This document shows positions 36,401 through 64,000 of a stretch of DNA of 64,000 nt, in pieces. Source of the stretch: Thamnaconus septentrionalis (lineage: Eukaryota; Chordata; Actinopteri; Tetraodontiformes; Monacanthidae). The translations under genes were made by a program, and so were the position numbers. Numbering within the stretch: the stretch's first letter is position 1; each line of letters opens with the position of its first letter. The notes beneath the pieces are model-generated. The model was not told the origin of the DNA and did no database searches. It saw only the letters and a program-made list of their open reading frames with translations. The stretch lies in assembly GCA_009823395.1 (NCBI GenBank), contig CM020515.1, positions 14,608,489-14,672,488 of the forward strand. The letters run 5' to 3'.

Positions 36401-39400
36401 ATGAGAAGCACATGGAATCTCCTAACGCTGGGTGAGTTTTGCATTGCCTTGGTATGGTAGGTCATCCTTGGTTTAAGGATGTGTGTGGTTAAGGTCAGAA
36501 ACCTTGCATATATATGTATATTTATTTACTTTTTAAATTCAAGCCTATTATAACATTCTAGATGAGCAGCAAATGTACCTCTTCTGTTTAATCAAAGTAT
36601 TTCTTTAAAAAAGCAAAGGCAAGAAATGGAATACAAACATATTTTGGAAATAAATATGTATATTTAACTAGACTGGGTAAAAATATTAAGGAGTCTTTAA
36701 CTTTAAACGGAATAGTAATTTCTTTACTGTTTTTCTCACTGACTCACTCACTGGCCATATAAAACATAGTGGGAGGCCCCTAAAGCACTAACGGCAGCGT
36801 GCTGAGCGTGAAGGTTTAGTGTGAGGAAAGGGGCAAATAAAAAATGTTGAGAAAAGGAAGGAGAGTGATGCTGAGCGCAGCAGCTTTCCCTTAAACAAAG
36901 CACCATCTGGATCCCACTGCACAGGGAACCCTCTGTTCTTTCAGCTTTCCCACTGATATTTATGGGACATGATCTCATCGTACAGCGACAGCTACAGTTT
37001 CTGTCACCTGACACATCCAATTGCCTCTAAAAGGAAGAAATGTGAAGTGAACCAGCGCTACCAGATGCAATACTGAGTGTGAGTTTCACAACAGAGAGTT
37101 TGTTTTCATAGTGTTGTGATGGCAACGCTTTATGGTAAGGGTTTGTGAATCAGCATGAGTTTGCACATGAATTACCTGTCTTATTCACTTGTTTATGACT
37201 TCTGACACAAACCACTGCAATGTTTGAATCATCTTGATGTATTAGTGTTTATAGGTGTACTCCGATCATCACCACCAAAGTAAAATAAAAAGGAAACAAG
37301 AAGAAAAATGACATTCATGAGGAGGCGACTTTTACTGTTGTTGGCAACAGCACTGAAATTACTAAAAAAACAAAACAAAAAAACATAGCAACAACAAGCT
37401 CTATTCTTCCTGCTCCCAAAAAAGCTTTATATCAGTCCGATTTGATGCCGTTCAGGCAGCCACACAAGACTGACTGACGTCAGTCAGTCTTGTGTGGCTG
37501 TTTCCTCACACATAAGTCGACTTCCTGTGTGATATGTGTGCCATCTACATTATGGTGCAGGTGGCACTGGAACAATCTGAGGAAATGAGAGAAGCTGCAC
37601 CTTTGTCTGACATTTTTGTGTTTGTTTGTTAATGTGACTGCCCACTAAAATATTAAACGCTGTTAAAAATATAAAAACGCTGTGAATGTGCAGTGTTGCC
37701 GTGTTCACATGTTGAAGTCCTGACTGACCGCCGACCGCTTGTTTTTCAGTTGGGTATCTCTCCTTGGTGGCGGCCCAGTCCTGTCCCCGGGGTTATTCTT
37801 TTGATGATGGATGCAGTGGTACGTGAAATTATCTATTTTCAGTCAGAGAGGGGAAATGCACGATACCTCAAATGATTTTATAAATATTTTTTTTCCTACT
37901 TTCACCATAAATGCCTGATGAATATTTTAGCATCTGTACTTTTGTTTTTCATTTTGTTTTGAATGTCTTTTAAAGAGCCTCCTTTGATGGCATGTATCTG
38001 TTATCATTTCTATTATCAATTAAGATATAGACGAATGTGAAATTGATGAGGATGATCCTGAACCTGGGCCGTGTGGAGAAAACAAAATCTGTTTGAACAC
38101 CATCGGCAGCTTCACCTGCCAGTGTGAGGACGGTTATCGAACAAAGACTGGCACTCTGACATTTTCTGCTGAGTCACCCGAAGGATGTGTTGGTAAGTTA
38201 GCTTATATGTTGTATGACACTGTGTTTTGTTAGATCCCCGAAGATTACCCTCCAAGGGAAGGCAATCTGACCAGCTCTGTAGAGTGTCCGATCTCACCAA
38301 ACCTAAGGGATTCTCACCCTATAGGAATTGGGAGATTGTTGAGGCTGGTGTTGAGGAGATTCGCCAAGCTTCTCATTCACTTTACTTCCGGATGCCAATC
38401 CAGCTTGCTCCGATGACACAGCCGGTCAAATAGGCCTGAATTGGTGTTATGCCGGGCGACACGGTGGCGCAGTGGTTAGCGCTGCCGCCTCACAGCAAGA
38501 AGGTCGTGGGTTCGATTCCGGGGCCCGGACCTGTGACCTTTCTGTGTGGAGTTTGCATGTTCTCCCTGTGTCTGCGTGGGTTCTCTCCGGGTTCTCCGGC
38601 TTCCTCCCACACTCCAAAAACATGCATGTGAGGTCAATTGAACACTCTAAATTGTCCGTAGGTGTGCATGTGAGTGTGAATGGTTGTCTGTCTCTATGTG
38701 GCCCTGCGATGAACTGGCGACTTGTCCAGGGTGTACCCTGCCTTCGCCCTAAGACAGCTGGGAGAGGCTCCAGCAGACCCCCGTGACCCTGAACAGGAAT
38801 AAGCGGGTATAGAAAATGAATGAATGAATGAATGGTGTTATGCCAATTGGCCACGCCTATAATGACTAGGATGAAAGCCATAAGGACCTGTTTAATTTCA
38901 GGGACTAGAATTAAATTATAGTACCGGTAGATGTGAGACGCGCTGACTTCCTAACTTTTTACTACCATAAAAAGTCCCAAAAAGAGTGATGTCCCCGTCT
39001 TTGAAAATGCTTGGCAATCGTTTTGACAATGATAAAAAAATTCATATCAACTTATTTGGGGTTTAATTTATAGTAATGAAATTATTGAGAAAAATCAAAT
39101 TCAGAAAAATCAAAAAAGTCAAAAGGATCCGAATTAAAATGAAGTAAATAATTCTTAAAAATACATATCATTTGAAAACGAGAGAGAGTGAGGAGGATTT
39201 CTATAGCAAGTCTTCACCAGCATGCCATGGAGAGGGAGAGCAGCTTGGATTAGTGTTGCGCATCAGCCGTGCAGCTTGAGATACCAGAGCGAGTGGAAGG
39301 TCGCCGGGATTCCTCCTGTCAATGAGGTCCGCTCCGCACTGAGCAATCTCAGCCGGCTCGTCTCCTCCAAGTCGGCAGAGTGAGCAAAACCAAAGGAGAA

Positions 39401-42400
39401 CTTCAGAAGAGCAAATTATACTCCTTGGTTTTTGGAAAAGGGTTAATCCTTTTTTGGGGCAGAGTCCGGCATTAATAATTCAAGAAGTTTTCTTCCATCA
39501 ATGTCCAGGTCGCTCACTAAACTTTGTGTTTTATCCCTGTTTGACTCATCTCTTGACCAATCTCCTTTGAAACTTTGGAAGATTTTACCTTTTTCAGTGA
39601 CCAACATGCAGCTCATTCAGCCTTCTCTCCCCTCCTGGCCTTGCATGGTCTTTGCATCCTACACCTCCTCCACAGACACTCATTATTAGCACACACACGT
39701 CTCATAAACACTCATGAACACTCATGATTGTTGTACAATTGTGTGTGTTGTGTGACTACACACTTGTAGTCACACATTGCCCTTTCACATACATTCGCTG
39801 TGATATTTGTGCACAGAGGAGGCATTATCTCGCTTCCTATTTGATGTACTGTTTGAGGCCCTTATTTTCCATTCTAAGATTAAATATCAATCTTTCACAC
39901 ATCAATATAAAACAGTGGTCCCCAACGTTTTTTTTGTTGGGGACCATTCAGCTCACTTGACAGTTTTACCACATTTATTTATCTAATGGAGTTTTGTCTC
40001 TATCCTTTCCTTCAAGATATCAATGAGTGTTCAGAGAACGAGGGCTTGTGCGGGGATAATGCTTTTTGCAGTAACACAAGTCCACAATACTCCTGCTTTT
40101 GCGACGTAGGATTTCTCTCCAGCACTGGAGGGGAAACCTTTCGCCACGGTGATAATGTGTCTTGTGTAGGTGAGTATGCCTAAAAACAAATATGGCTGCG
40201 TGTGAAGATATGCTGTTTCTGTGACTGTGTGATGTCTTTGTAGACTCACACTGATGTTTCCCTCAGTTATTCCTCCCACGTACTCTGTCTTGTCATCACT
40301 AGATGTGAACGAATGCAAAGAGCACGACACGTGTGGTGCGAACGCAACCTGCTTCAACACAAATGGAAGCTATTATTGCACCTGCAATTCTGGATTTGCC
40401 CTGAAATCAGGCGCGTCCAGCTTCACTGAGACTGGTGAGCGATGTGAAGGTAAGGGCAACACGAAAGAGATAAGACACAAAAAACTGTGTTCACACTTTT
40501 GGATCTTTGGTTTTGCTTCTTGTTTTTTGTTTTTCACCGTTCTTGTAATGACTCTTGCCTGGAGGGACGGCGGTGGACTGACAAACACATGTATCCCCCA
40601 CCGATTTGTTTCCTTCGCAGACATGTGTTCGATCGATAAGACAATCTGTGGAAACGGAACCTGCCACCCCACACCTAACGGCCACCTGTGTGCATGTCAC
40701 AAAGGCTTCACAAACTATTTCAACCAAGGGGCCAAATGCATACGTGAGTACACAGCGCCACAACTTTTTTTTCGAAGCACCCGTTAATGAACGATATAAA
40801 CGATATAAATCCATGAGGACAATAATTAATAACAAAAACTGTCTCTCCTCAGCTTTAGACTGTGATGTTTTTGTGGATCATGAGAAGGAGGTATAGCCAC
40901 GCCTATAACATTGCAATATGAAGTTTCAATCAGATGACTTTTTAAACTAACCTAACAATATTTTCTCCCAGGAATTTCCTGCAGGACACGATTTTGCGTT
41001 GCTGTTGAGAAAAAGCTGCCAGAATCTTTCAGAAACTGGCATTTCATGCCATGTGGATGGATACGACATACTGGAGGTACGACTGCAGTTCACTGACATG
41101 CAATTGACTTTGAGAGAGGCTGCAACTCAGCAGCCAAGAGAAACAGGAAGTCCCCCTGCATCCCCCACCACCACCCCTGATCACATGGTGTTCAGATGCC
41201 TGTGCACTGTCTGTGAAATGTTTATGTTGACCTGCAGTGCTGTGCGGCCCGACAGTCCGCGTCAGTCAGTCTGACTCCGTCTCCCTTTTCCCAACACATG
41301 TAGAGACTGTTGTCCATCGTTGACAAGCTCTTGTCCAGTGGAATCGTGGAGAATAACAGGAAAGTATCCGCATTTCTGGCCATGATGGAAAGCGCTCTGG
41401 GGCTTGTCAGCCCTTTGATAACACCTCCCGGAACAAATAGATCCTCCAATCTTGCAGGTTTGATATTGATTAAAATACACAGTTTTTCTTCGCAGTCTGA
41501 TTTTATCTTTCATGGAAGAGGCAGTGCAATTCAGTGACGTCTCTGGCACTGATGCACGTCTTAAAGAAACTCTCTTTGTATGGTTTTAGAACTGAATGTA
41601 CTGGTGCATCGAGGTCATTTCCCTGACGGACCTGTGACGTTTTCATCTAGCAAAGCCAAACTGGGCATCAACATGGAGACGGCAGCTGGCTCGCCCTCCT
41701 CTTATCCTGGTACCCGCCTTGTTCAAAAATGTCACATCCATCGACCATCTAAAGTCTAATGTGGATCCAATTTTTTTTTTCACCTCCTCCCATTCGTGAA
41801 AGGTTTTGCCACCGTGTCCATGCTGAGCTACTCCAACCTGGAGAAATCAGCAGACGGCTACTTCAGCGCGATGGAGCCGCAGAAAGGACACACCTTCAAA
41901 ATCAACTCGAGAGTCGTGACCGTCAGCGTCAGCAACAGGAACACGAGTCACCTCGACCAACCGGTCAAGCTGACTTTTGACCACCTGGAGCAGGTAGCGG
42001 ATATTTTGACCAATGTGATTGCTTTATGGGGTAACATTTACCCAAAACATAGCCAGAGGTGTGACGATACGAAAGACAAGTAAAGTGCAGCTATTTGAAC
42101 TCCGCTGTTGCGCAATTCAATATATAAGTGGATCATATTTCAGTGGGAGGTTATGATGGAGTTCGTCGGCTTCCAGGTCACTGATCAATGCGTTGTCAGT
42201 ATAGAGAAAAATACATTTCTAGAAAATAATATTAGTTATGTTATTGTTATTAAAAGTGTAAATATATGTATGTGACAATTAATTTATTGTTTTTGTATTT
42301 TCATACTTTTTACTTAAATACATTTCCGCACCTATGCTTTCTAACTTTGAATTAGGTAAAGGAGGTGAATCAGTGCTTTTTTTACACAAGTATCTGTACT

Positions 42401-44697
42401 TTTACTTAAGTACACTACATGAATACTTTTGCCTCCTCTGAAAATAACAATGGATTGTGTTTTTGTGTTTTCCAGTCAGGTGGGTTGAACCACACCTGTG
42501 TTTTCTGGGATTCCTCAAAGGAGGGAGGTTCCTGGTCGCCTCGTGGCTGCACCGTGGAGGAGTCCTCCACAAAACGCACCCTATGTTCCTGCACCCACCT
42601 GAGCAGCTTTGCGGTGCTCATGTCGCTTTATGAGATGGAGGTGAGAGCAGAGCCATGACCTCACAGCTGAGATGCTGCCGTTTGTTTTGTGCTTTTTTTC
42701 CCCTGAGCTTCAGTGTGACTCTTCTCTGTGAACAGGACAAGTTTGACTTGCAGCTGATGACCTGGGTGGGTCTGTCCCTCTCGCTGGTCTGCCTCTTCCT
42801 CTGCATCCTGACCTTCTCCATGATCCGCTCCATCAAGAGTCCGAGGACAACAATCCACCTGCACCTGTCCATCAGCCTCTTTGTGGCCATCCTCATCTTC
42901 CTCACGTGCATCTCTCGCACAGAGAACAAGGTAAAATGCCTCTGCGGCCTGTTGCAGCGAGATGAGCCCATTAGTGCCGCAATTTTTTCCGACACTTGGT
43001 GAATTCAGTGAAAAAACTTTGAGCGCAGCTGTTGAATGATTTATGTGGGTGCTGAGAATTATAAACAATTCAGTGAGTTTTTTGTTTCTTTTTTTTTATT
43101 ATTTCTTTCAACACCCTTTCTCCCACCCTCTCTGTCTCTGGTGCACTAGGTCAGCTGTGCAGTGATCGCAAGCCTGCTGCATTTTTCCTTCCTGGCAGCG
43201 TTTTGCTGGATGTGTCTGGAGGGCGTACAACTCTTCAGGATGGTTGTCTTGGTCTTCAACACCAACTTTAAAACTCTTTACATGATGATTGGCGGATATG
43301 GAATCCCAGCCGTGATTGTGGCTGTCTCTTTATTGGTCAACGCAAAGGAATATGGTACCAACAGATAGTAAGTTTAGTCTTCTGATGAAGATAATAATAA
43401 TAATTAATAAATACTTAGCAATGTTAAAATTGTTATTATGTATTTCAGTTGCTGGTTAAGTCCAAAACTCATTTTGAGTTTCTTTGGCCCAGTCTGTGTT
43501 ATCCTCGTTGTGAGTAACCTTGTTAAGTCATTAAAATATATTTTATTTCTTATTGTAAGAAATGCAGTATCCTCAACTAATCGCTGATGCTTGATGTCTT
43601 GCAGATTAATATTTTCTTTTTTCTCATCACTGTGTGGAAGTTGGCACAGAAGTTTGCGAGTTTAAACCCTGACTTGGACAAACTGCAGAAAATAAAGTGA
43701 GCGAACAGCAACACCAGATGCAACACTTCTGAGGGTGTGCTTAGCTTAGGCGGAACATTTCCTGTTTCTAAAAGCAAATAGTACGTGATTTATGTTTTCT
43801 CCTAGAACTCAAGTTAACGGGTTTTTTTCGTGTCTCTGTTGCCATCTGCAGGACATTCACCATTACTGCAGTGGCCCAGCTGTGTGTTCTCGGTATCACG
43901 TGGATATTTGGCTGTTTCCAGTTTGACGACAGGACAATGATAATGTCTTACTTGTTCACCATCTCTGGCAGCCTTCAGGGAGTGATGATGTTTTTCTTCC
44001 ACTGTCTTTTTTCGAAACAAGTGGGTCACGGCGAAAAATCAGCATTTCGTGCTGGCATGTTTGCGGTGAAGTCTAACATTGTGCCATTAAATGTGTCTTG
44101 ACCTCAGGTGAGAGAGGAGTATGGAAATATCTTCTCCAAATTATGTGCACCCAGCAAGAAGAACTACTCAGAATTCGGTTCACTCTCGAGCAAACCACAG
44201 GTAACTGTACAACTTGAGTACTTCTTGTGCGTCGTCAACAAGGTGACTCAAAATGCAACACATGCAATAATATTCTGCATTAAATATATGATGGAGAAGT
44301 TTCCTGATTTAAACTCATTTGTATAAATGAATCAACGTACATTTAAACTTGAACGATGGTTGAACTGCTACAATTATATGATACATAACTCAGCATTTGA
44401 TAACTCAAGTGGTCCACTCACAAAATGTCTTTTCTTTTTTTTAATCACATGACATCAAAGATATTTGATTGTGCAAAGCTAGCACCTCAGGTTTTTTTTT
44501 TTACATGTGATGATGAGAGCTTTATAGATGAAAAGTGATATGTATTGCATGCTGTTCACAGAGCCAAATTACACCATTAGTAAAAGAAAAGTGGAAGTGT
44601 CTGCCATGACAAATCTTGTTCTAATTGCTTTGTATTTGGGTGTGGTGGGTTGCAGGCATCCAAAAGCACACAGGACACAGGAGAGTCTCATATCTGA
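36401..44697 (+). CDS. adgre5: Adhesion G protein-coupled receptor E5 (CD97)-like, 19 coding exons
   Basis: Exons: 36401-36431, 37750-37818, 38025-38192, 40017-40169, 40303-40449, 40621-40743, 40853-40890, 40972-41076, 41304-41457, 41590-41709, 41803-41993, 42476-42640, 42736-42930, 43150-43367, 43449-43509, 43605-43696, 43852-44020, 44108-44200, 44656-44697. All have GT-AG borders and sum to 777 codons plus stop. The protein has a signal peptide (about 1-20), then four EGF-like modules, one per exon from exon 3 to exon 6. The first three start D-I/V-D/N-E-C, typical of calcium-binding EGF. A GAIN region follows (about 243-488). Its GPS has W444, C458, C470, C472 and H474-L475-S476, so self-cleavage after L475 is expected. 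Seven membrane segments follow from about 490. The tail ends in Ser-His-Ile, much as CD97 ends in Ser-Gly-Ile. Neighbouring ptger1 supports the ADGRE5 name. Another ADGRE paralogue is the main alternative. Confidence 0.9.
37457..37500. repeat. Perfect 44-bp palindrome centred on a full CRE
   Basis: The left arm 37457-37478 and right arm 37479-37500 are exact reverse complements with no spacer. The centre holds TGACGTCA (37475-37482), the full cAMP-response-element/ATF consensus, flanked by TGAC and GTCA repeats. It lies in intron 1 of the adgre5-like gene. Confidence 0.95.
38442..38844 (+). mobile_element. tRNA-derived SINE with 12-bp target-site duplication
   Basis: The body is about 38454-38832. 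Its head is tRNA-like, with an A box near 38465-38475 (TGGCGCAGTGG) and a B box at 38509-38519 (GGTTCGATTCC). The middle is unrelated to tRNA, and the end is a (TGAA)n-type tail. The identical 12-mer TGGTGTTATGCC flanks it at 38442-38453 and 38833-38844, which is the mark of LINE-driven insertion. It lies in sense orientation in intron 3 of the adgre5-like gene, between two EGF exons. I recognise it as a common teleost SINE type but cannot name the family safely. Confidence 0.9.
39749..39776. repeat. 12-bp hairpin
   Basis: Arms 39749-39760 and 39765-39776 are perfect complements around a 4-base loop. Intron 3 of the adgre5-like gene. Confidence 0.85.
39915..39947. repeat. Short inverted repeat, possible DNA-transposon remnant
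   Basis: GTCCCCAAC and GTTGGGGAC face each other across a T-rich loop. The left side reads CAGTGGTCCCCAAC, which resembles hAT-type transposon ends known from vertebrate genomes (recalled, not checked). There is no second end nearby, so this may be a fragment or chance. Confidence 0.35.
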
Positions 44698-46546: not shown

Positions 46547-46594
46547 ACAAACTGAAGTACTTTAACCGTTTATTCTCTGTAGGATTCATCAAAC

Positions 46595-47812
46595 ATGAAG
46601 ACTCCGGCCATGCTCATGACGGCTCTTCCTGCCTCTTCAGTACCGTTCAAACTGCATTTCAATATGAACGCCACAGAGCAGCCCCACACCCCTACTCAAG
46701 CATTTGGTTTTGGGATGACATGCTTCACTCTCATATTTGGAGCCGTTTCCAACCTTGTAGCTCTTGGAATTTTGGCCCATTTAAAACATAGCCGCCGCCA
46801 ATCAAAAGTTTCCTTCTGGCTGCTCACTGTGCTCTTGCTTTTGACTGACCTTGGAGGTCACGTGATCCTAGGTGCTTTTGCCCTTTACATGCACATCTGT
46901 TTGTATTTTAAGAAACAAATTTGGGAGCCCAGCAAGCGACTATGTGATATGTTTGGAGCAAGTATGGTGTTCTTCGGGTTGTACCCTTTGTTTTTGGGTG
47001 GTGCCATGGCTGTGGAGCGCTGCGTGGCCATCACTAAGCCCTTTATCCACAATTCAAAAATCTCACTAAGCCGTGTGCGCCGCGTTGTGGCACTATTGTT
47101 CTTCATTGCACTTATTATGGCAGTTCTACCGCTTTGTGCCGTAGGGACTTACACCACTCAGAACTCTGGGACTTGGTGTTTTCTGCCCGTCCACGGTCCC
47201 CAATCTACAGCTGACAGCATCCTGGTATTGGCCTTCTCATGTCTGGGCCTCGCTGCACTTATTCTGTCGCTGTTATGCAACATCCTGAGTGGTCTAGCGT
47301 TGCTGCAGGCCAGAATGAGGACTCAAAATGTCATTACCAGATCAGTAGGTTTCCTTTCTCGTCGCTCATCGTCTACATCGACTTCCTCCTTGGTTTGCTC
47401 GTTGGATGTGGAAATGATGGCACAACTGGCAGCAATCACAGTGATTTTCTGCATATGCTGGAGCCCTTTCCTTGTGAGTACAGCTCCGATAGATGGCAGG
47501 GTTTGTTTGTTTTTGTCTTTTGTTTTTAAATGAGAAGGTTTTCATTTGAGTACTAACGACCACATTATCTTTATTTTATTGTAGATTCACATCTTTTGGA
47601 CTCAGTTCCATCAGAGTCTGATCCCCGCCACCCATGAGAAGGATGATTTTGCTCTTCTAAGTGTCCGTATGGCCTCCTGGAACCAGATCTTGGACCCATG
47701 GGTTTATATTCTGCTGAGAAGAGTGGTTTTTACAGAGTTTTTTCCTCCTTCAACACACAGAGAACTGCTGCAGCTCCCAAGTGAATCATGCTCTAAATGT
47801 TGTTCTTATTGA
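46595..47812 (+). CDS. ptger1: Prostaglandin E receptor 1 (EP1)-like GPCR
   Basis: Exons 46595-47473 and 47585-47812 join in phase 0 to 368 codons plus stop. The single intron falls at the end of TM6, the known conserved intron site of prostanoid receptor genes. Prostanoid hallmarks are all present. N25 is a likely glycosylation site. C117 at the top of TM3 can pair with C195. The E141-R142-C143 motif replaces DRY. Extracellular loop 2 has GTWCF (192-196). In TM7, R321 is the Arg that binds the prostanoid carboxylate, and D330-P331-W332 follows. The third loop/TM6 segment D-V-E-M with C-I-C-W-S-P matches EP1 closely. The family member signals through Gq and calcium in mammals. The cytoplasmic tail is short and ends in a Cys cluster. 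Fish have several EP1 copies and I cannot say which this is. Confidence 0.92.
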
Positions 47813-48819: not shown

Positions 48820-52054
<3,235 letters not shown>

Positions 52055-53069: not shown

Positions 53070-55664
53070 CTAGCGGTCCACTGACAAGGATATCCTGGTG
53101 GGGAGGATTTTCAGTGGATGCTCTTTGCAGGCAGTGCAAAAGTAGGGGAACGCCCGGGGTGTGATGAGGTCGGCGAAGGTGTAGAGCGGCGTCCTCTCCC
53201 CCGAGTCGTAAAACGCCACCTTTCCCCGGTCCATGTCCAGAACGATGCGGATGACTTCGGGATGCTTGGTCATGTTTAGCGGCTCCCACGGCGCCGTGCA
53301 GGCCTTGTGCTCGCCGTTGCGGAACCTGATGCACCAGAATCCTTCGGCCGGCGTCAGCACGTGCTTGCCCTTCCTGTTGATGGACTCGCTGGCCACGCCC
53401 ACCACCCAGTACGTGTTGTCTTTCACCTCCACCTCCCAGCTGTGACGTCCGCAGGTGTAGCCCTCGACCGCCAGCATCTCAGCGCTGATGTCGAAGCGTT
53501 CCGGGTTGTCTGGCAGCTTGAAGATCTGGCTGCTGTTCTGCACCAGGGTGAGGTCCTCTGAGAGGAGGAAGCAGCTCGCTGCAGTGTTTGGATCCAGGAT
53601 CACAGGGTCTTATGTGGGGAGGGAACATGGTAAGTGTTACAATAAGGCAGGGTAATGAGGAAAAAAATGACTGTTTCTCTTTCTTTTACTCACTATATTT
53701 TACAAAACTCTTCATCTTCTCCCACACTTTATATTTTAAAGATCCCAAGTGATTGGCTACGTCAATCAAAGAATCGGAACTGATTTCTGGATTGGGGGGT
53801 TTTTGCCAGGTCCTAAGAAGAAGAAAAAGTTTTCACAACAATTTTAACAATATTTGCTTCACTTTACTTGCAGGTTAACACTTACCTCCTGATTGTTTCC
53901 TTGTAATTCTGAAAACATGATTGAAAAGAAAACCTGATGTAAGTGACTTGCCAATCAGGCAGTTTCTCCTTTAAATCTCTTGAGGCAAACAGATCGGTGT
54001 ACCTTGAGAAACGTTACATCTTGAGCTCTCATCTCCTGCTCCACGTCTCGGATGGTGTGCGAAAGGGATGCGATTTCATCAGTCAGCTCTTGAATCTGCT
54101 GATTAATCACCAAATCCTTCTCGTCCCCCTCGGCCCTCAGGGCAGAGAGTCTCGCCGCCTCCTGCTCCTTCAAGAAGCTGTGGAGAACTTCAAATTCCTC
54201 CTTGATCCGTTTTTCGGTGTGCTGAGTTTGGTTCTGGGAAGAGATACGACTGGTATGTGAACAGCGCATTCTCACGTGTGCTCTGCAAGTGTATTGAAAG
54301 TGATTTTTTATTGCCAGTACCTTCACGTGCTCTGCCATTTCTTCACACACCAATTTTGCCTTCCTGTACTCCTGCAACTTATCTTTCAACGGCTGCAGTG
54401 CATTCTTCAACTCCTCCTATGAAGTCAGTGGCAAAGTATCAACACCACTAAGTCCAGGGTCAGTCTGGCAGGTGGTCGGGCTTGACGGCACAATGCAGAG
54501 CTTCCAGCTGCCACGCACCATTCATAGCACCGTTCGCTACAAATGCCAACTGTGTGGCAGCATAAAAATGGAACTAAAAACCTGTTGCCTAGCCAGAAGA
54601 AGCCTTTGCTGGGCAACGTAGTCCGTTCAAGGTTTGATCAGAGGGGACAGGGGGGTATTCAATCAATGCAGGGGTTTGTCAATAAGTTAACTCACTTTGC
54701 GTTAACGGGTTGTGGAGGACGGGAGCTGAATGAACACTGTGTCACAGAAATCTCTGCAGGAGTCGAGTTTCAGTCCTCTCGGGACGTCAGCAGCGACAGC
54801 AGACCAAAAATATGATTCTATAATTAGAATGATAATAAACTCTGCCTATTACCTCCTGTGTATATCAACATTTAAGCAGAGGGGTTAAGTGGAAAATAAT
54901 GAAAGAAGTCAAAGAACAATAAACTTTTTCATAGTGGTTTTGAAGCTACATCAAGTGTCACCTCTCATTCACAAGATTGCAGCTGTCTTCAATGTTGTGT
55001 ATTGTCAGCCCTGAAATTTGTGATCAAACCGAGTAAACCGTCTTCCAGATTAAACCTGAGTTGGTATTCTATTCAAGGACTCAATCGATTTGGCATCCAA
55101 ACAATGTGACTGTGACCTATTTGACTGTGAGGGTAAGAAAGTGTCAGTGACTGAAGATGTAGCGGGTATCCGATGAAGAGGCTGCAGCTCGTTGTAAACA
55201 CTGGCAGTGTGATATTAGTGCAAGTGGGGTGACTGACCCTGCATGTCCTGAGAGTTGCCTACCTTACAGTCGTGAGCACCCTCCGCGATGGGATAGAGCC
55301 TGTGGCCGGTGTGCGCCGCCGCCTTCCCGCACAGACCGCAGATGGGCTCCAGGTCCTCCAGGCAGAACAGCGTGAGCTTCTCTCCGTGCTCCCTGCAAGC
55401 CATCGGCTCGTTCTTGCTCCTGTCTTTTCTGAGGGATTCGCAGGACCTCTGTAGTACAGAGTTCACCACTATTTGGTCCAAGGTGCAAGAGCTCCAGCAG
55501 AGAGGGCAGTAGTGGGACTCGCCGCTGCCTTGTGCCTCCCAGCTCTGCAGCAGGCAGGCTTTACAGAACCTGTGTTTGCAAGTGATCACTATTGGCTGGC
55601 AGAGGATAAGTGCACAAATTGGACAGGAGAGGTCGTCCTCCAGCCCTACACGTCTGCTGGACAT
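53070..55664 (-). CDS. TRIM-family E3 ubiquitin ligase (RING, B-box 2, coiled coil, PRY-SPRY)
   Basis: Coding exons on the minus strand: 55664-55263 (402 bp), 54416-54321 (96), 54233-54003 (231), 53908-53886 (23), 53812-53694 (119) and 53608-53070 (539). Together they give 469 codons plus stop. The exon sizes 96, 231 and 23 are the classic TRIM coiled-coil layout. The RING has C14, C17, C29, H31, C34, C37, C53 and C56. B-box 2 has C90, H93, C101, D104, C109, C112, H118 and H121. The coiled coil spans about 135-250 and PRY-SPRY about 291-469, with L-D-P and W-E-V-E-V motifs. The usual L-D-Y-E motif is replaced by L-D-M-D. All zinc ligands are present, so it should be an active ligase. SPRY selects the target. 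Fish carry many such genes, some antiviral. The class resembles TRIM35-like or NF7-like proteins, but I do not assign a symbol. Confidence 0.93.
54417..55262 (-). other. Intron 1 of the TRIM gene
   Basis: The longest coding-region intron of the gene, at about 846 bases. I see no further exon or element in it. Confidence 0.6.
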
Positions 55665-55675
55665 TCTTTATCCCC

Positions 55676-56240: not shown

Positions 56241-57610
56241 GCTGAAAATTTGTCATCAGGGCCAAACTAAAAATGTTGTTTGTATCTGTGCCAGTGCAGT
56301 TACAGCAATTCACAGGCAGTGATAGCGGTAAGGTAAAGAGACCTCTTCCCCACACACACAAACCAAACAAACAAAGTTTACTGTCTTATTAAAGTCAGAA
56401 AGCTAATAGTAATAGTTAATAGTTTATCATTCAAGAAGGTTGTAGTCCTTTTTGTGTGTTTTTTTCTTTTAAACTATTAGATTATCATTAATATTAATAT
56501 GAATTAATATTTCTAGACTTTGGAAATGGCTGTAAACAACTATTATATCAAGTGTAACACATAAGCCATCTTTTTGTATTCAAATTCACTATATGAACTA
56601 GTGAATATGCATGCTTAGCATTATTAGAAGATCAAAATATTATTTTTATTATTATTCTGCTTACCTGAACGTTTTCTTTATCAAACACAGTGTGTGCAGG
56701 GCTGACCTTCAGACCTCAGGAAAGATCACATGCTCATGCAAAGGCCCATGGTTCTTTAGCACGAAGGACTTTCCTCAGTGAGATGTGAAGAACCACTCCA
56801 GTCAAGAGCTACAAAGGGTCACTTTTTGTAGCATGAGACCGAAGGAATGTCCGTCACATGGCAAAATGACCTCCATGTGGAACCTCCAGCAGCAGTGACG
56901 CGTCGCGTGCAGGCAGTAAGTCATATGTTTTTTCTGCATGTGGGGTATGCCTTGTGTTTGACTGCGCAACACCCTTGAGAAGACAAATAAGGACATGAAG
57001 CCATGTTCCGAGTTGTACCCGTGAATAATCAGGCACATAAACGCTGGAAGTGATAAATCAGATCATAACGTTTTTATATGCCGCGCATGTCGTAGATGTT
57101 TCCATCTTTCGGCAATGTAGTTATCTAAATAGCTGAAAGATTTCATCAGCAGAGAGAAGTATGTTGTACTTACAAATCAGCATTATGAGCTATTGCTCTT
57201 ATTTACTTAAAATTCATCCGCAACATTGATAGAAAACATGATGCACTACTAAGATGTGAAACTTTGTATAATATACACTATATATAAATATACATTTATA
57301 TCCATACATGTATATACATACATATATACATGTGCATATATATACATACATACATATATACAGACGCATACATATACATATATACATACATATGCATATA
57401 TATACATACATACACATGCATATATATACATATATACATATTTATTTGAAGGTCAGTGTGCACTGCAAAAACTCTTAAAAACCTCTATGGGCTGTAATTT
57501 GAAAAAAATATTGTAGCAAAAATATGTTTAACAACAATAAAATAAAACAAGCCATCTACATTTCTGCCAGTGAGAGCAAGGAGGCAATGTGTTTTCAATT
57601 ACATGGTCCA
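56241..57610. other. Intergenic, TRIM gene to vac14
   Basis: AT-rich. It holds a TATACA-type microsatellite (about 57278-57440), listed separately. No coding frame with support. Confidence 0.5.
57278..57440. repeat. Imperfect (TATACA)n tract
   Basis: About 160 bases of alternating TATA/TACA/CATA units. It gives Tyr-Ile and Cys-Met frames on both strands that are not genes. Confidence 0.9.
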
Positions 57611-58349: not shown

Positions 58350-60710
58350 TCACACGGCTTTCCTGTCGGCGTGATCCGCGGCCCGTCCGGAGCGCTGGTG
58401 TCTGACTTCCAGGTGTTTGCTCTGGACGCGCTCGAAATGCTGGAGCAGCTCGCTGTAATCCACCTGGGCGTGGGAGGCACGTTTGGAGACGGCTTTCTGC
58501 TTCGAGTCCATATGTCTGGATTCCTCCACCGTCCGCATGAGCTCCGGGTTGGGCACGCACTGCAGGCGGTGCGACAGGAGCTGGAAGGCCTGGCTCTGGG
58601 GCAGCAGCATCAGCAGGCCGTACAGCGCCTTGATCAGGTACGGGTTGTTCTCCACATCGAGGAGCTGCAGCCGCAGGTAGGTGAAGATGGGGCTCTCGAT
58701 CAGCTGCACCAGCTTGTCCACCTCCATCAGGAAGTCCACGGTCACCTCCAGGTCGCCAAACTTCTGGATGAGGTCATAGGCGTGCTTGTAGTTTTGCGTG
58801 AGGAAGCAGAGCGACACGGTGGCCACGGGATTGTGGCACCACGACCGGTACAAGCAGCAGAACAGCGTGCAGCTCTCCTGGGTGCGCAGGTCCTTCAGCT
58901 GGTTGCGCAGCTGGAAGAGCTCGGCCGAGGTCAGCAGGATGGTATTGAGCGTCTGGACCATGGTGGAGGCAAACTTCAGGTCCTCCTCCTTCAGCAGGAT
59001 GTCGGCCATGGAGTGGAAGATGTTCTCGGCATGGAGCAGCAGGCAGAGCTGTCGGATGATGAAAGCTCCCCTGTTGTCCAGGAGCTTCCTCTCCAGGCTG
59101 AAGCGCTTGAGCAGGTTGATCATGAACTTGTAAAAGTAGGAGTTCATGCTGGGGGTGGAGGGTGAGGAGTCACCTGCCTTCGATCCCGCGTTGGACTGCT
59201 GGCTCTGCTTCACGCTCGCTGGTACCTTCAGGTCCATTTTGCCGTCAGCGCTGTCGCAGGTGCCCGTTTGGTCCGTCTGGCCCGCAGGGGACGATGCGAT
59301 CTCGGCCAGGACCTCCAGATCTTTCAGGATTACCTCGTCTGACTCGTCGGAGAGGGTTTTGAGCAGCATGGGGAACAGGCTGTCGGTGTGACGGAACATC
59401 TTGCGAGGGGTCTTGATGTAGAGGTGGTAAACCCACTTGAGCACGGCGATGCGGGTCATCATGCCGGTGGAGGAGTCGTGGAGGTGCCGGTCCAACACCT
59501 GCACGATGCTGTCCAGGTCGAGGGAAACCTGAGGCCTGTCGGTGCCCGCCGGCGTGAAGAAGCTGATGTTACTGAGTCCGATGGATTCTTGCGAAGCGTT
59601 GAGCATGTCATTAGCATCCACTTCTGTCTTCGAGGGGCCGTCCGTCTCCGACTGGGTGCCTGCGCCTTTGTCCTCATCTTCGTCATCCTCAGCGGTCACC
59701 AGCTTCATCAGACTGTGGTTACAGGCACTGGCGGCTTCTTTCGTGTTCTTTTTCCTGTCGTCATAGGAAAGGCAGGGCAGCACTGCGGTGAGAATGCCAG
59801 ACGAGTAGGGCAGCATGACTCGCCCTGCGAGCTGGATGAACTCCCTCATCCAGGTCATGGCTGTCAGCTGGATCAAATCGTTTGTGATCTTGGTCTCGTC
59901 CGCCACCTGGCAGTGGATGACGAGGATGTTGGCCATCTCGGCAAATTTCACACTGGACGGCGTCTTCTTGATCTCTTTCAGAAACTCGCCCAGCACCACC
60001 TCACAAGTCTTACGGATCTCCTTGCTGTTGTCCCCCAAGATCTGAAAGAGCCCATCGAGGATCTCGGGGAGATAGTCGATCAGGTTGATGTCCGGCACGG
60101 ACTCCAGGACATGGATCCAGGAGATGATGAAGTGACGAGCATACTGGTTGTTGGAGTATATTCTCTCTCTGAGAAGGGGCACGAAGGCCACCAGGTCAAA
60201 CTTGTTGCTTTCTGTCACAATGTCTTTCAGCAACCGGTCCAGGAGCTCTGATCCGCTCTTGACGTTGGGGTCAGGGTCCGCTGCCAGCTTGCTGAGCCCA
60301 TCGAAGAGCAGGTTAAAGTGGGGCAGCACCGCTCCCCTGGCCACTTTCACTATGTTGTAGAGAGCCTCGCAAGCATAGTAACGCAGGCGGCTGTCTGAGT
60401 CGTTGAAGCACGTGAGCACGGGCTCGATGAGCTCCTTTAGGTACAGACCTGAGTCCTTGCCGAGCGCGATGGAACAAGCCGCCAGTCCGATCAGACCCCC
60501 CTTTCGACTGTGGGGATGCTGCGAGAGCGCAAACTCCGAAGCCAGGATCTGAATGACATGCCTGATCTGCGTGGAGTTGTTCTGAGCGACAAACTCCCGG
60601 ACCAGTTTCTCAATTTCGAGCGCCGCGACTTTCCTCTTCTCGTACAGTTTATCATTCAGAGCCCTGACAATGTTGGGCGTCAGGGGCGAAAAGTCCTTTT
60701 CCGTGTTCAT
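58350..60710 (-). CDS. vac14: VAC14, PIKfyve complex scaffold; intact and intronless
   Basis: One uninterrupted frame of 786 codons plus stop, starting M-N-T-E-K-D-F at an ATG. It matches the recalled human VAC14 (782 aa) end to end. The N-terminal HEAT-repeat half is nearly identical ([13 protein letters not shown], then [12 protein letters not shown]). An acidic linker lies near 345-390. The C-terminal half that binds FIG4 and makes Vac14 pentamers is present, ending [14 protein letters not shown]14 holds the kinase PIKfyve and phosphatase FIG4 on endolysosomes and so sets PI(3,5)P2 levels. Normal VAC14 has many exons, so this is a retrogene or a complete intron-loss copy. There are no frameshifts or stops, and a short lineage-specific insert (about 274-279) sits in the N-terminal half. 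The absence of decay implies it is used. Confidence 0.95.
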
Positions 60711-61000
60711 GGTCGCACTCGGTCGTTATGCCGGACTCTTCACACAAAAAATGCGCACTGACAGGCAAGAAATTGATCCGCATTGATGGCAGTTTATGAC
60801 GAGAAAAATACGAAAGGAAAATGTTGCTCGGTCAAAGGAGGAAGTCCCGTAATACAGCGCAGCTGACCGGTTGCATCCGCCGGATGTACGTCACGGTGAT
60901 GCTACACTTATTTGGGTCCCGCTATAAGAGCACCGCTGGCTAAAATTACCTTAACTTGCTGTACTGGAAATACACGTTTTCATTCTGACTGAACTAACGT
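60711..61000 (-). promoter_or_regulatory. vac14: Probable vac14 promoter and 5' leader
   Basis: CpG-rich sequence just upstream of the vac14 ATG. It has a CRE-like GTACGTCA at 60886-60893 and ETS-like GGAAG and CCGGA cores nearby (about 60839-60885). No TATA box is obvious, which fits a housekeeping promoter. Use in the cell is inferred. Confidence 0.35.
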
Positions 61001-61985
61001 TCTCGCTCATTTAAATTTACGTTACCTCTTTACCGAGTTAAGTTTGGTTACAAAGGGTTGTTACCTCCGGTTTGTTTGATGCGAGCTGCCGAGCGACACT
61101 CTTAGTGAAGCTGAGAAGCAATGCGTTTATGCTAAAGCTAAAGCCTAACTAACCACTCTTTTTGCAAATCGGGTATTTATGTCAAAGGGATAAAAGATCA
61201 CTTACCAGATTTTAAATATATGACATTCATTGTGAGTTTGAGTGGATTTGAATAGTTGTACTCTTTACTCTTAGTCCTGACACAGTATGCTCTATTAAAT
61301 AGTAAAATATTTGAACTCTCGTTTTGTTGTCTGAGGCGACCCTGGTTGACAGAAGTGCGGACACCAAAAGCAGAGAAAATGATTGTGCAGAGAGCACTAC
61401 CAGCTTATGCTAACAAACAACTCTTTGTAAAGAAGGTAACACTGGAATTGTGGAAAAGACACTGAAGAACTATTCGTTTTGTGTTTTTTTGTTTTGTTTT
61501 TATTACTTTTTACAAAGAATTTAAAGCAAACATGGTCAAGGAACCTGAGCACCCTCTTTGAACAGGCTGTGAAAATGGTTGAGTCAGCAGGTATAACAGG
61601 AGAAGCATCCACCAAAAAACAAAAACAAACTTTGATTAATGGCACAACAAAGTCCCCAAGCACTTGAATGATAACAATGATGATGTGCAATTTGATGAAG
61701 AGAGTAAAACAGGCAAATAATGAGGCCTGCAGGTGAGCTCGGTCACAATGAAAAACAAACGTCATCATCTGAAAGCAGCTCGGCTCTAAATAACGGTTCA
61801 TCAAACACAATTGGCTGAAATGTGGTTAATGCAGAAACAGCAGGCGCTTCAAACCAAGAATGTTTTTGTTGTCTAATATGTAGCAGAAACGTCTTCCACT
61901 AGAGTGCTATAATGCAGCACACGAGTCAAACTATTGCAGCAGATGCAATTGACATTTCCCTTACAAGAAGTTAACCTCTCATAAC
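61000..61985. other. Intergenic, vac14 to zinc-finger remnant
   Basis: A short frame at 61256-61465 (+) and some T/A-rich runs. I recognise no domain. It may hold upstream exons of the decayed zinc-finger gene that follows, but no splice chain is evident. Confidence 0.4.
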
Positions 61986-63309: not shown

Positions 63310-63965
63310 TTATGTGACCATTTTGGCACTTGTCGCCTCAACTAGGTGTTGAAAACACTGGTGGTGATTCAGCCCATATTTGTACGCATAACATTTTCCA
63401 CAATCTACACAGCTATAAGGCTTTTCCCCAGTGTGTGTTCGAAGATGTATGTTCAGAGAGCTTTTCTGGGAGAAGCTTTTGCCACAGTCCGGACAACTGT
63501 AAGGCTTCTCCCCTGAGTGCACGCGCTGGTGAAGCTTCAGGTATGTTTTCTGTGCAAACCTCTTGCCACAGACGGAGCAGCTGAACGGCTTCTCGCCAGA
63601 GTGCCGCCTTATGTGGACTTTTAAACTGCTTAAATAATTGAATATTTTTCCACAAAACAAGCACTCAAACCGTTTTGTCGGCTTTAACGGTTTTGGCTGA
63701 AACGTGTGCTCTTTGGTTGCACCCATGTGTACATGGTTTGTGAAGCCAGTCATGGTGGGGTACAGGGAAGCTGTGGGACAATTTGTGTTGTCAGCCAAAG
63801 CACTCATCGTCGCGTCCTCTATCAACTTATCCATAATTGTCGGCTGTGTGCGATGATGGTGTTGGCTTTCAGTCATCATGGGGAAGTTGTTTAGCTCCCC
63901 TGGGTGAATCTGCAGCTCATCAACAGATCTGTGTAGCATGCCATCCTCTTCAAACATTCCATCCA
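63310..63965 (-). CDS. C2H2 zinc-finger protein, last exon (partial, continues past the right edge)
   Basis: On the minus strand an acceptor (CATCTGACAG) ends at 63966. The exon then reads about 217 residues to a stop at 63310. Upstream exons lie outside the window. After about 95 residues without a known domain come four fingers, numbered from the first residue of this exon: C102/C105/H118/H122, C130/C133/H146/H150, C158/C161/H174/H178 and C186/C189/H202/H207. Linkers are H-S-G-E-K-P-F, H-S-G-E-K-P-Y and H-T-G-E-K-P-Y. The last finger has a wider His spacing (X4). It is probably a DNA-binding nuclear protein. No KRAB or BTB domain is seen in this exon. The gene cannot be named. Confidence 0.85.
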
Positions 63966-64000
63966 CTGTCAGATGAGAGAGGAAAAAAAAGTTAAATCCC

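Follow-up and report, generated by a model that had tools for sequence, protein, structure and literature searches.

The VAC14 gene of Thamnaconus septentrionalis, found within the 64,000-nucleotide stretch of contig C15 that was analysed here as a whole (the window, C15:14608489-14672488), consists of one uninterrupted coding exon and most likely is an orphan retrogene, a gene of the known kind produced by retrogene replacement. A single retroposition on the acanthomorph stem, followed by loss of the parent, with the single-exon gene left to supply the whole VAC14 scaffold, is quite probably the history behind it; in this history we infer the RNA intermediate, the timing, the loss of the parent, and, from the conservation of the gene, the normal expression and function of VAC14. 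With less assurance, we lean toward the broader claim that an essential single-copy gene was moved to a new chromosome by this one event, that its parent was erased, and that a retrogene now serves the PIKfyve-VAC14-FIG4 complex in all spiny-rayed fishes.

A first-pass annotation of this DNA had claimed a complete single-exon VAC14 of 786 codons without a stop and with both functional halves conserved, and on these points it was right. The ORF listing gives a minus-strand frame at 58350-60710 that runs uninterrupted from ATG to TGA, inside a stop-to-stop frame of 791 codons, and Pfam places Vac14_Fab1_bd at residues 68-163 (5.7e-46) and Vac14_Fig4_bd at residues 541-719 (1.8e-80). Among the matches listed, the nearest named VAC14 proteins of acanthomorphs are ~92% identical to it and collinear over 100% of the length, which together with the domains excludes a chance frame. 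Sequence features that mark a VAC14 protein are present, namely the N-terminal Vac14_Fab1_bd, the C-terminal Vac14_Fig4_bd, full-length collinearity, and strong conservation, and the product is predicted to be the scaffold for PIKfyve and FIG4 in PI(3,5)P2 synthesis. GC3 exceeds that of six of the seven neighbouring exons measured, the SPRY exon of the TRIM gene standing at 0.84. A PDB search with VAC14 returned no match, and tRNA and Rfam scans of the 64-kb window returned nothing.

The start codon lies inside a CpG-rich stretch (Table 1), and part of the 5' flank may be conserved. In P0053, a 17.3-kb contig entry placed beside Betta in the protein tree, the VAC14 frame continues upstream of the ATG, and the best match of this extension in the 64-kb window is the VAC14 5' flank itself (60883-60839, E 0.013). 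The upstream extension of P0087 matched 60898-60848 weakly (E 0.22), with better matches elsewhere in the window, and that of P0042 had no match at the VAC14 5' flank. An mRNA of ~3.3 kb ending at the candidate AATAAA is predicted, a size that the mRNA-like VAC14 contigs of relatives fit (3,292-3,295 bases; P0024, P0026, P0027). Just downstream of the candidate polyadenylation signal lies a TA/TG-rich microsatellite (57252-57462).

Table 1. Features of the window around VAC14 (positions counted from the first base of the window)
Feature	Position	Strand	Remarks
Adhesion GPCR, ADGRE-like	39911..44098	+	Ca-EGF repeats, 7tm_2; the name ADGRE-like is our reading
PTGER1c (prostaglandin E receptor) exon	46583..47530	+	synteny marker
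SLC27A-like exons	49072..52051	+	AMP-binding domain in first exon; the name SLC27A is our reading
TRIM gene	53073..55667	-	RING, B-box, coiled coil, PRY-SPRY
Candidate polyadenylation signal AATAAA	57612..57617	-	putative assignment
VAC14 CDS	58350..60710	-	single exon, 786 codons + stop, GC3 0.82
CpG-rich promoter/first-part region	60350..61250	-	CpG o/e 1.02-1.28 in 300-base windows starting 61250 down to 60650
Possible conserved 5' flank	60839..60898	-	probable promoter / 5' UTR, about 130-190 bases upstream of ATG
C2H2 zinc-finger gene	63313..63999	-	upstream of VAC14

A search of the genome for a second, intron-bearing vac14, as the first-pass annotation had proposed, turned up the window's own gene and no other. 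In the whole assembly (474,147,460 bases, 132 contigs, six frames), one VAC14 match, at its own locus, was obtained with its own protein at E<=0.001, and again one with pike VAC14 at E<=10. In a control separate from the genome search, the VAC14 CDS was cut into 19 pieces set among random spacers and searched with tblastn; 11 hits at a genome-scale E<=0.001 together covered 668 of 787 residues, so that a second, intron-bearing VAC14 should have shown. Likewise, family searches of the same assembly found COG4, IL34, and IMD genes each as several separate pieces, and HYDIN as a single one. No relic of the parent better than E 7 was seen in 100 kb around COG4 plus 100 kb around IL34; the surroundings of HYDIN and MTSS2 were covered for this purpose by the whole-genome VAC14 searches only. 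No parental gene was thus found in the assembly, which is given without a stated completeness.

The position of the gene points the same way. Human VAC14 we take to lie at 16q22, flanked by MTSS2/IL34/COG4 and by HYDIN. In T. septentrionalis, COG4 lies on C5 beside CTCF and GNAO1, and both HYDIN and IL34, the latter beside SIAH1, lie on C13, whereas VAC14 sits on C15 with a TRIM gene on one side and a C2H2 zinc-finger gene on the other. Close by are PTGER1c, an SLC27A-like gene, and an adhesion GPCR, three kinds of genes that we presume to be placed at human 19p13. VAC14 has therefore left its old neighbours and is unlinked to the parental neighbourhood, as far as human synteny indicates the parental position. 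An IMD-domain search of the genome gave 29 matches on seven contigs, with two clusters at 11.8 and 13.8 Mb of C15 that we read from their exon pattern as BAIAP2-type; given that IMD paralogues are not assignable, MTSS2 was left out as a marker. The six genes named on C5 (COG4, CTCF, GNAO1) and C13 (IL34, SIAH1, HYDIN) are, on our assumption, human 16q genes, and their split between two contigs is what a pair of regions derived from the teleost genome duplication would show.

Outside the acanthomorphs, vac14 appears to have introns. Among 139 VAC14 proteins listed besides the window's own, 74 were named (35 non-acanthomorph and 39 acanthomorph rows), and within these matches 'isoform' labels occur in 8 of the 35 non-acanthomorph rows, from Salvelinus, Oncorhynchus, Salminus, Astyanax, and Sinocyclocheilus, against 0 of the 39 acanthomorph rows. 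Salminus and Astyanax have a two-residue difference at about the same position, an exon-sized block is repeated in the models of Pangasius and Polyodon, and inserted blocks occur in those of Anguilla, Prochilodus, and Oncorhynchus. Gene models, as distinct from DNA, thus point to vac14 introns in salmonids, characins, catfish, carps, eels, and paddlefish, and the gene has no introns, as is seen directly here, where these relatives would have many. An ancestral intronless state in all fishes, which the first-pass annotation had raised against its own reading, is accordingly rejected, since the gene models of other teleosts and of paddlefish, with their isoforms, duplicated blocks, or inserts, suggest introns.

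Within the acanthomorphs, unspliced VAC14 frames extend well beyond this species. The 'lgn' entries, which we take to be Logan contigs, appear to be frames read without splicing, as PTGER1c, whose coding region would have an intron, suggests: 18 of 20 contigs longer than 4 kb give proteins of at most 340 aa (the other two give 386 and 411 aa) and named models are mostly 340-390 aa, in both cases among the matches listed. Full-length VAC14 stands on contigs longer than 4 kb, exceeding the ~3.3-kb mRNA, in 23 of the 60 acanthomorph 'lgn' entries listed, nine of them on contigs longer than 6 kb and the longest on one of 17.3 kb. Nearly identical full-length frames in relatives lie on contigs longer than the mRNA in P0003 (6.7 kb) and P0009 (8.6 kb). 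The corresponding count for non-acanthomorphs is 0 of 5 listed against 23 of 60 (Fisher p 0.15), too few to differ. Given that near-full-length proteins only are listed, these entries establish that unspliced frames exist and do not imply that introns are absent everywhere. Internal residues are missing from two acanthomorph models, 41 in that of Scophthalmus (749 aa) and 26 in that of Channa striata (762 aa); these gaps are most simply false introns, with real introns possible.

The association with PTGER1c is similarly widespread. The best 120 matches for each of the two proteins were compared, a common contig being judged from equal contig size, and 16 acanthomorph species were common to both sets, with Mastacembelus, Gouania, and Scophthalmus set aside because one of the two contig sizes was missing. 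Of the other 13 species, 12 have VAC14 and PTGER1c on a common contig, among the matches listed: Stegastes (whose scaffold spans 328 kb), Sphaeramia, Embiotoca, Neosynchiropus, Limanda, Genypterus, Synchiropus, Thalassophryne, Lampris, Diretmus, Betta, and Eucyclogobius. Eleven of these contigs exceed 5 Mb, which demonstrates linkage and not adjacency; closeness is indicated by two cases only, the Stegastes scaffold and the locus tags of Lucifuga, the thirteenth species, whose contigs are small and whose tags are LDENG_00086800 for PTGER1c and LDENG_00086830 for VAC14. The Lucifuga model P0227 (LDENG_00086800) fuses PTGER1c with an AMP-binding domain. Given that the linkage is common to Lampriformes, Trachichthyiformes, and percomorphs, from Lampris to gobies, it is old. 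PTGER1c itself seems to be fast-evolving here, its exon being ~52-65% identical to named PTGER1c among the matches listed against ~92% for nearby VAC14; identity to its nearest contig entries among those matches falls from 98 to 72%.

The protein tree agrees with a replacement. In it, all the acanthomorph VAC14 proteins listed fall into a single clade (support 0.83), whose sister is the smelt Hypomesus (support 0.98) inside the euteleosts, where these species belong; branch lengths are ordinary and the branching order broadly matches that of the species. No second acanthomorph VAC14 clade is present in the tree of listed proteins. A single clade with ordinary branches implies that the copy replaced the gene and that no diverged paralogue was added.

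Taken in sequence, the proposed events are as follows. On the stem of the spiny-rayed fishes, after the split from smelts, a many-exon vac14 mRNA would have been reverse-transcribed and the cDNA inserted near ptger1c/slc27a, where the copy would have gained a promoter or carried one along and come under the same constraint as its parent. The many-exon vac14 at the old site would then have been lost, and the single-exon gene would now be the sole supplier of the VAC14 scaffold for PIKfyve and FIG4. The target-site duplication that the first-pass annotation had suggested seeking was not found when the two VAC14 flanks were compared for identical words of 9-16 bases (in shuffled flanks the longest shared word averages 8.7 bases and reaches 13), nor was any poly(A) tract found at these flanks. 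Decay of both is expected for an old event; missing insertion marks are thus uninformative at this age, and for this reason we say that the gene most likely is a retrogene.

The main rival to retroposition is loss of introns in place combined with translocation, in which vac14 was moved by DNA rearrangement to the ptger1c area and its introns were later removed by recombination with cDNA. Complete intron loss through cDNA conversion is possible, the absence of a target-site duplication or poly(A) at VAC14 suits such a course, and the old site has been taken from human synteny and not from an intron-bearing teleost. Nevertheless, this course takes two events, a relocation and, independently of it, the loss of all introns, where retroposition needs one insertion and the loss of a parent, and HYDIN, IL34, and COG4 lie on C13 and C5, not on C15; we consider it unlikely, if worth keeping in view. 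The first-pass annotation had offered a preserved retrogene or a gene that lost all its introns, and its first alternative has gained: the gene is single-exon, retrogene-like, the only copy found, and outside its usual block (by human positions), while its second survives as this rival.

Two further explanations were weighed against retroposition on the acanthomorph stem. A recent retrocopy private to the species or family, its parent missed by an assembly of unstated completeness, might be suspected given that the 15 closest listed proteins are all contig-derived entries. Its probability is very small, however, and it is rejected, since it is contradicted by the PTGER1c linkage shared from Lampris to gobies; the single VAC14 in the genome at E<=10, the nearly identical full-length frames of P0003 and P0009, and a protein tree that follows the species tree in outline also stand against it. 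The suggestion that the case is special to this animal likewise fails, as the linkage reaches Lampris and Diretmus and unspliced frames occur in other percomorphs. For an artefact, whether cDNA contamination or misassembly, no supporting point was found, and the chance of one is negligible: exon-structured neighbours flank VAC14 inside contig C15, a separate 4,968-bp public contig record (P0002) is identical at 785 of 786 residues, and the upstream flank is possibly conserved. Placement in a contig of a 474-Mb assembly and a second record differing at 1 of 786 residues make the cDNA contamination of which the first-pass annotation had warned very unlikely, and the artefact reading is rejected on these grounds.

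To our knowledge, an essential housekeeping gene is rarely replaced by its own processed copy, and no report of vac14 as a retrogene or intronless gene was found in the literature searched; the word 'vac14' is absent from the portions of the main text of PMC8207432 and PMC3136929 that were consulted. The closest parallel is amphioxus SYCP1, where a retrogene is reported to have replaced its many-exon parent: there too a many-exon gene exists as a single coding exon at a new site and the multi-exon parent is lost (PMC5803294). Unlike VAC14, SYCP1 is a meiosis gene that acquired new expression together with a multi-exon 5' UTR (PMC5803294), whereas VAC14 is a lysosomal scaffold of a fish clade. 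The intron-less rhodopsin and Opn4 retrogenes of teleosts are likewise reported to be old, functional (putatively so for VAC14), and long kept, but Opn4 has five genes of which one is intron-less (PMC10339062) and no other copy of VAC14 was found. Similarly, in teleost hatching-enzyme genes, intron loss coincides with a change of locus and function is kept, as it putatively is in VAC14; there, in contrast, several events occurred within a gene family and the promoter is reported to have travelled with the gene (PMC6385490).

If the reading is true, the coding part of acanthomorph VAC14 is not open to alternative splicing, and a clade-wide replacement would be missed by screens that require a surviving parent. 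The retrocopy screen of PMC3136929 is reported to accept as candidates only those sequences whose best hit is a multi-exon gene, and retrogene replacement is for that reason hard to see. A dated, clade-wide case may inform how a promoterless copy took over a dosage-sensitive scaffold, and single-exon vac14 would offer spiny-rayed fish phylogeny a rare coding character. More broadly, medaka, stickleback, and killifish, judged by their clade, probably regulate vac14 differently from zebrafish and mammals.

Finally, two repeats were noted by eye around the window and the former neighbours of VAC14. A dispersed repeat frame at 38355-38950 of the window recurs twice near IL34 on C13 (L011 6812-7239; L013 523-1208) and, given this recurrence, probably belongs to a transposable-element family. 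Upstream of COG4, at about 2.50 Mb on C5, a BED-zinc-finger-like repeat run (L022 2694-6017) is possibly a multi-BED-finger gene or a transposon-derived array.
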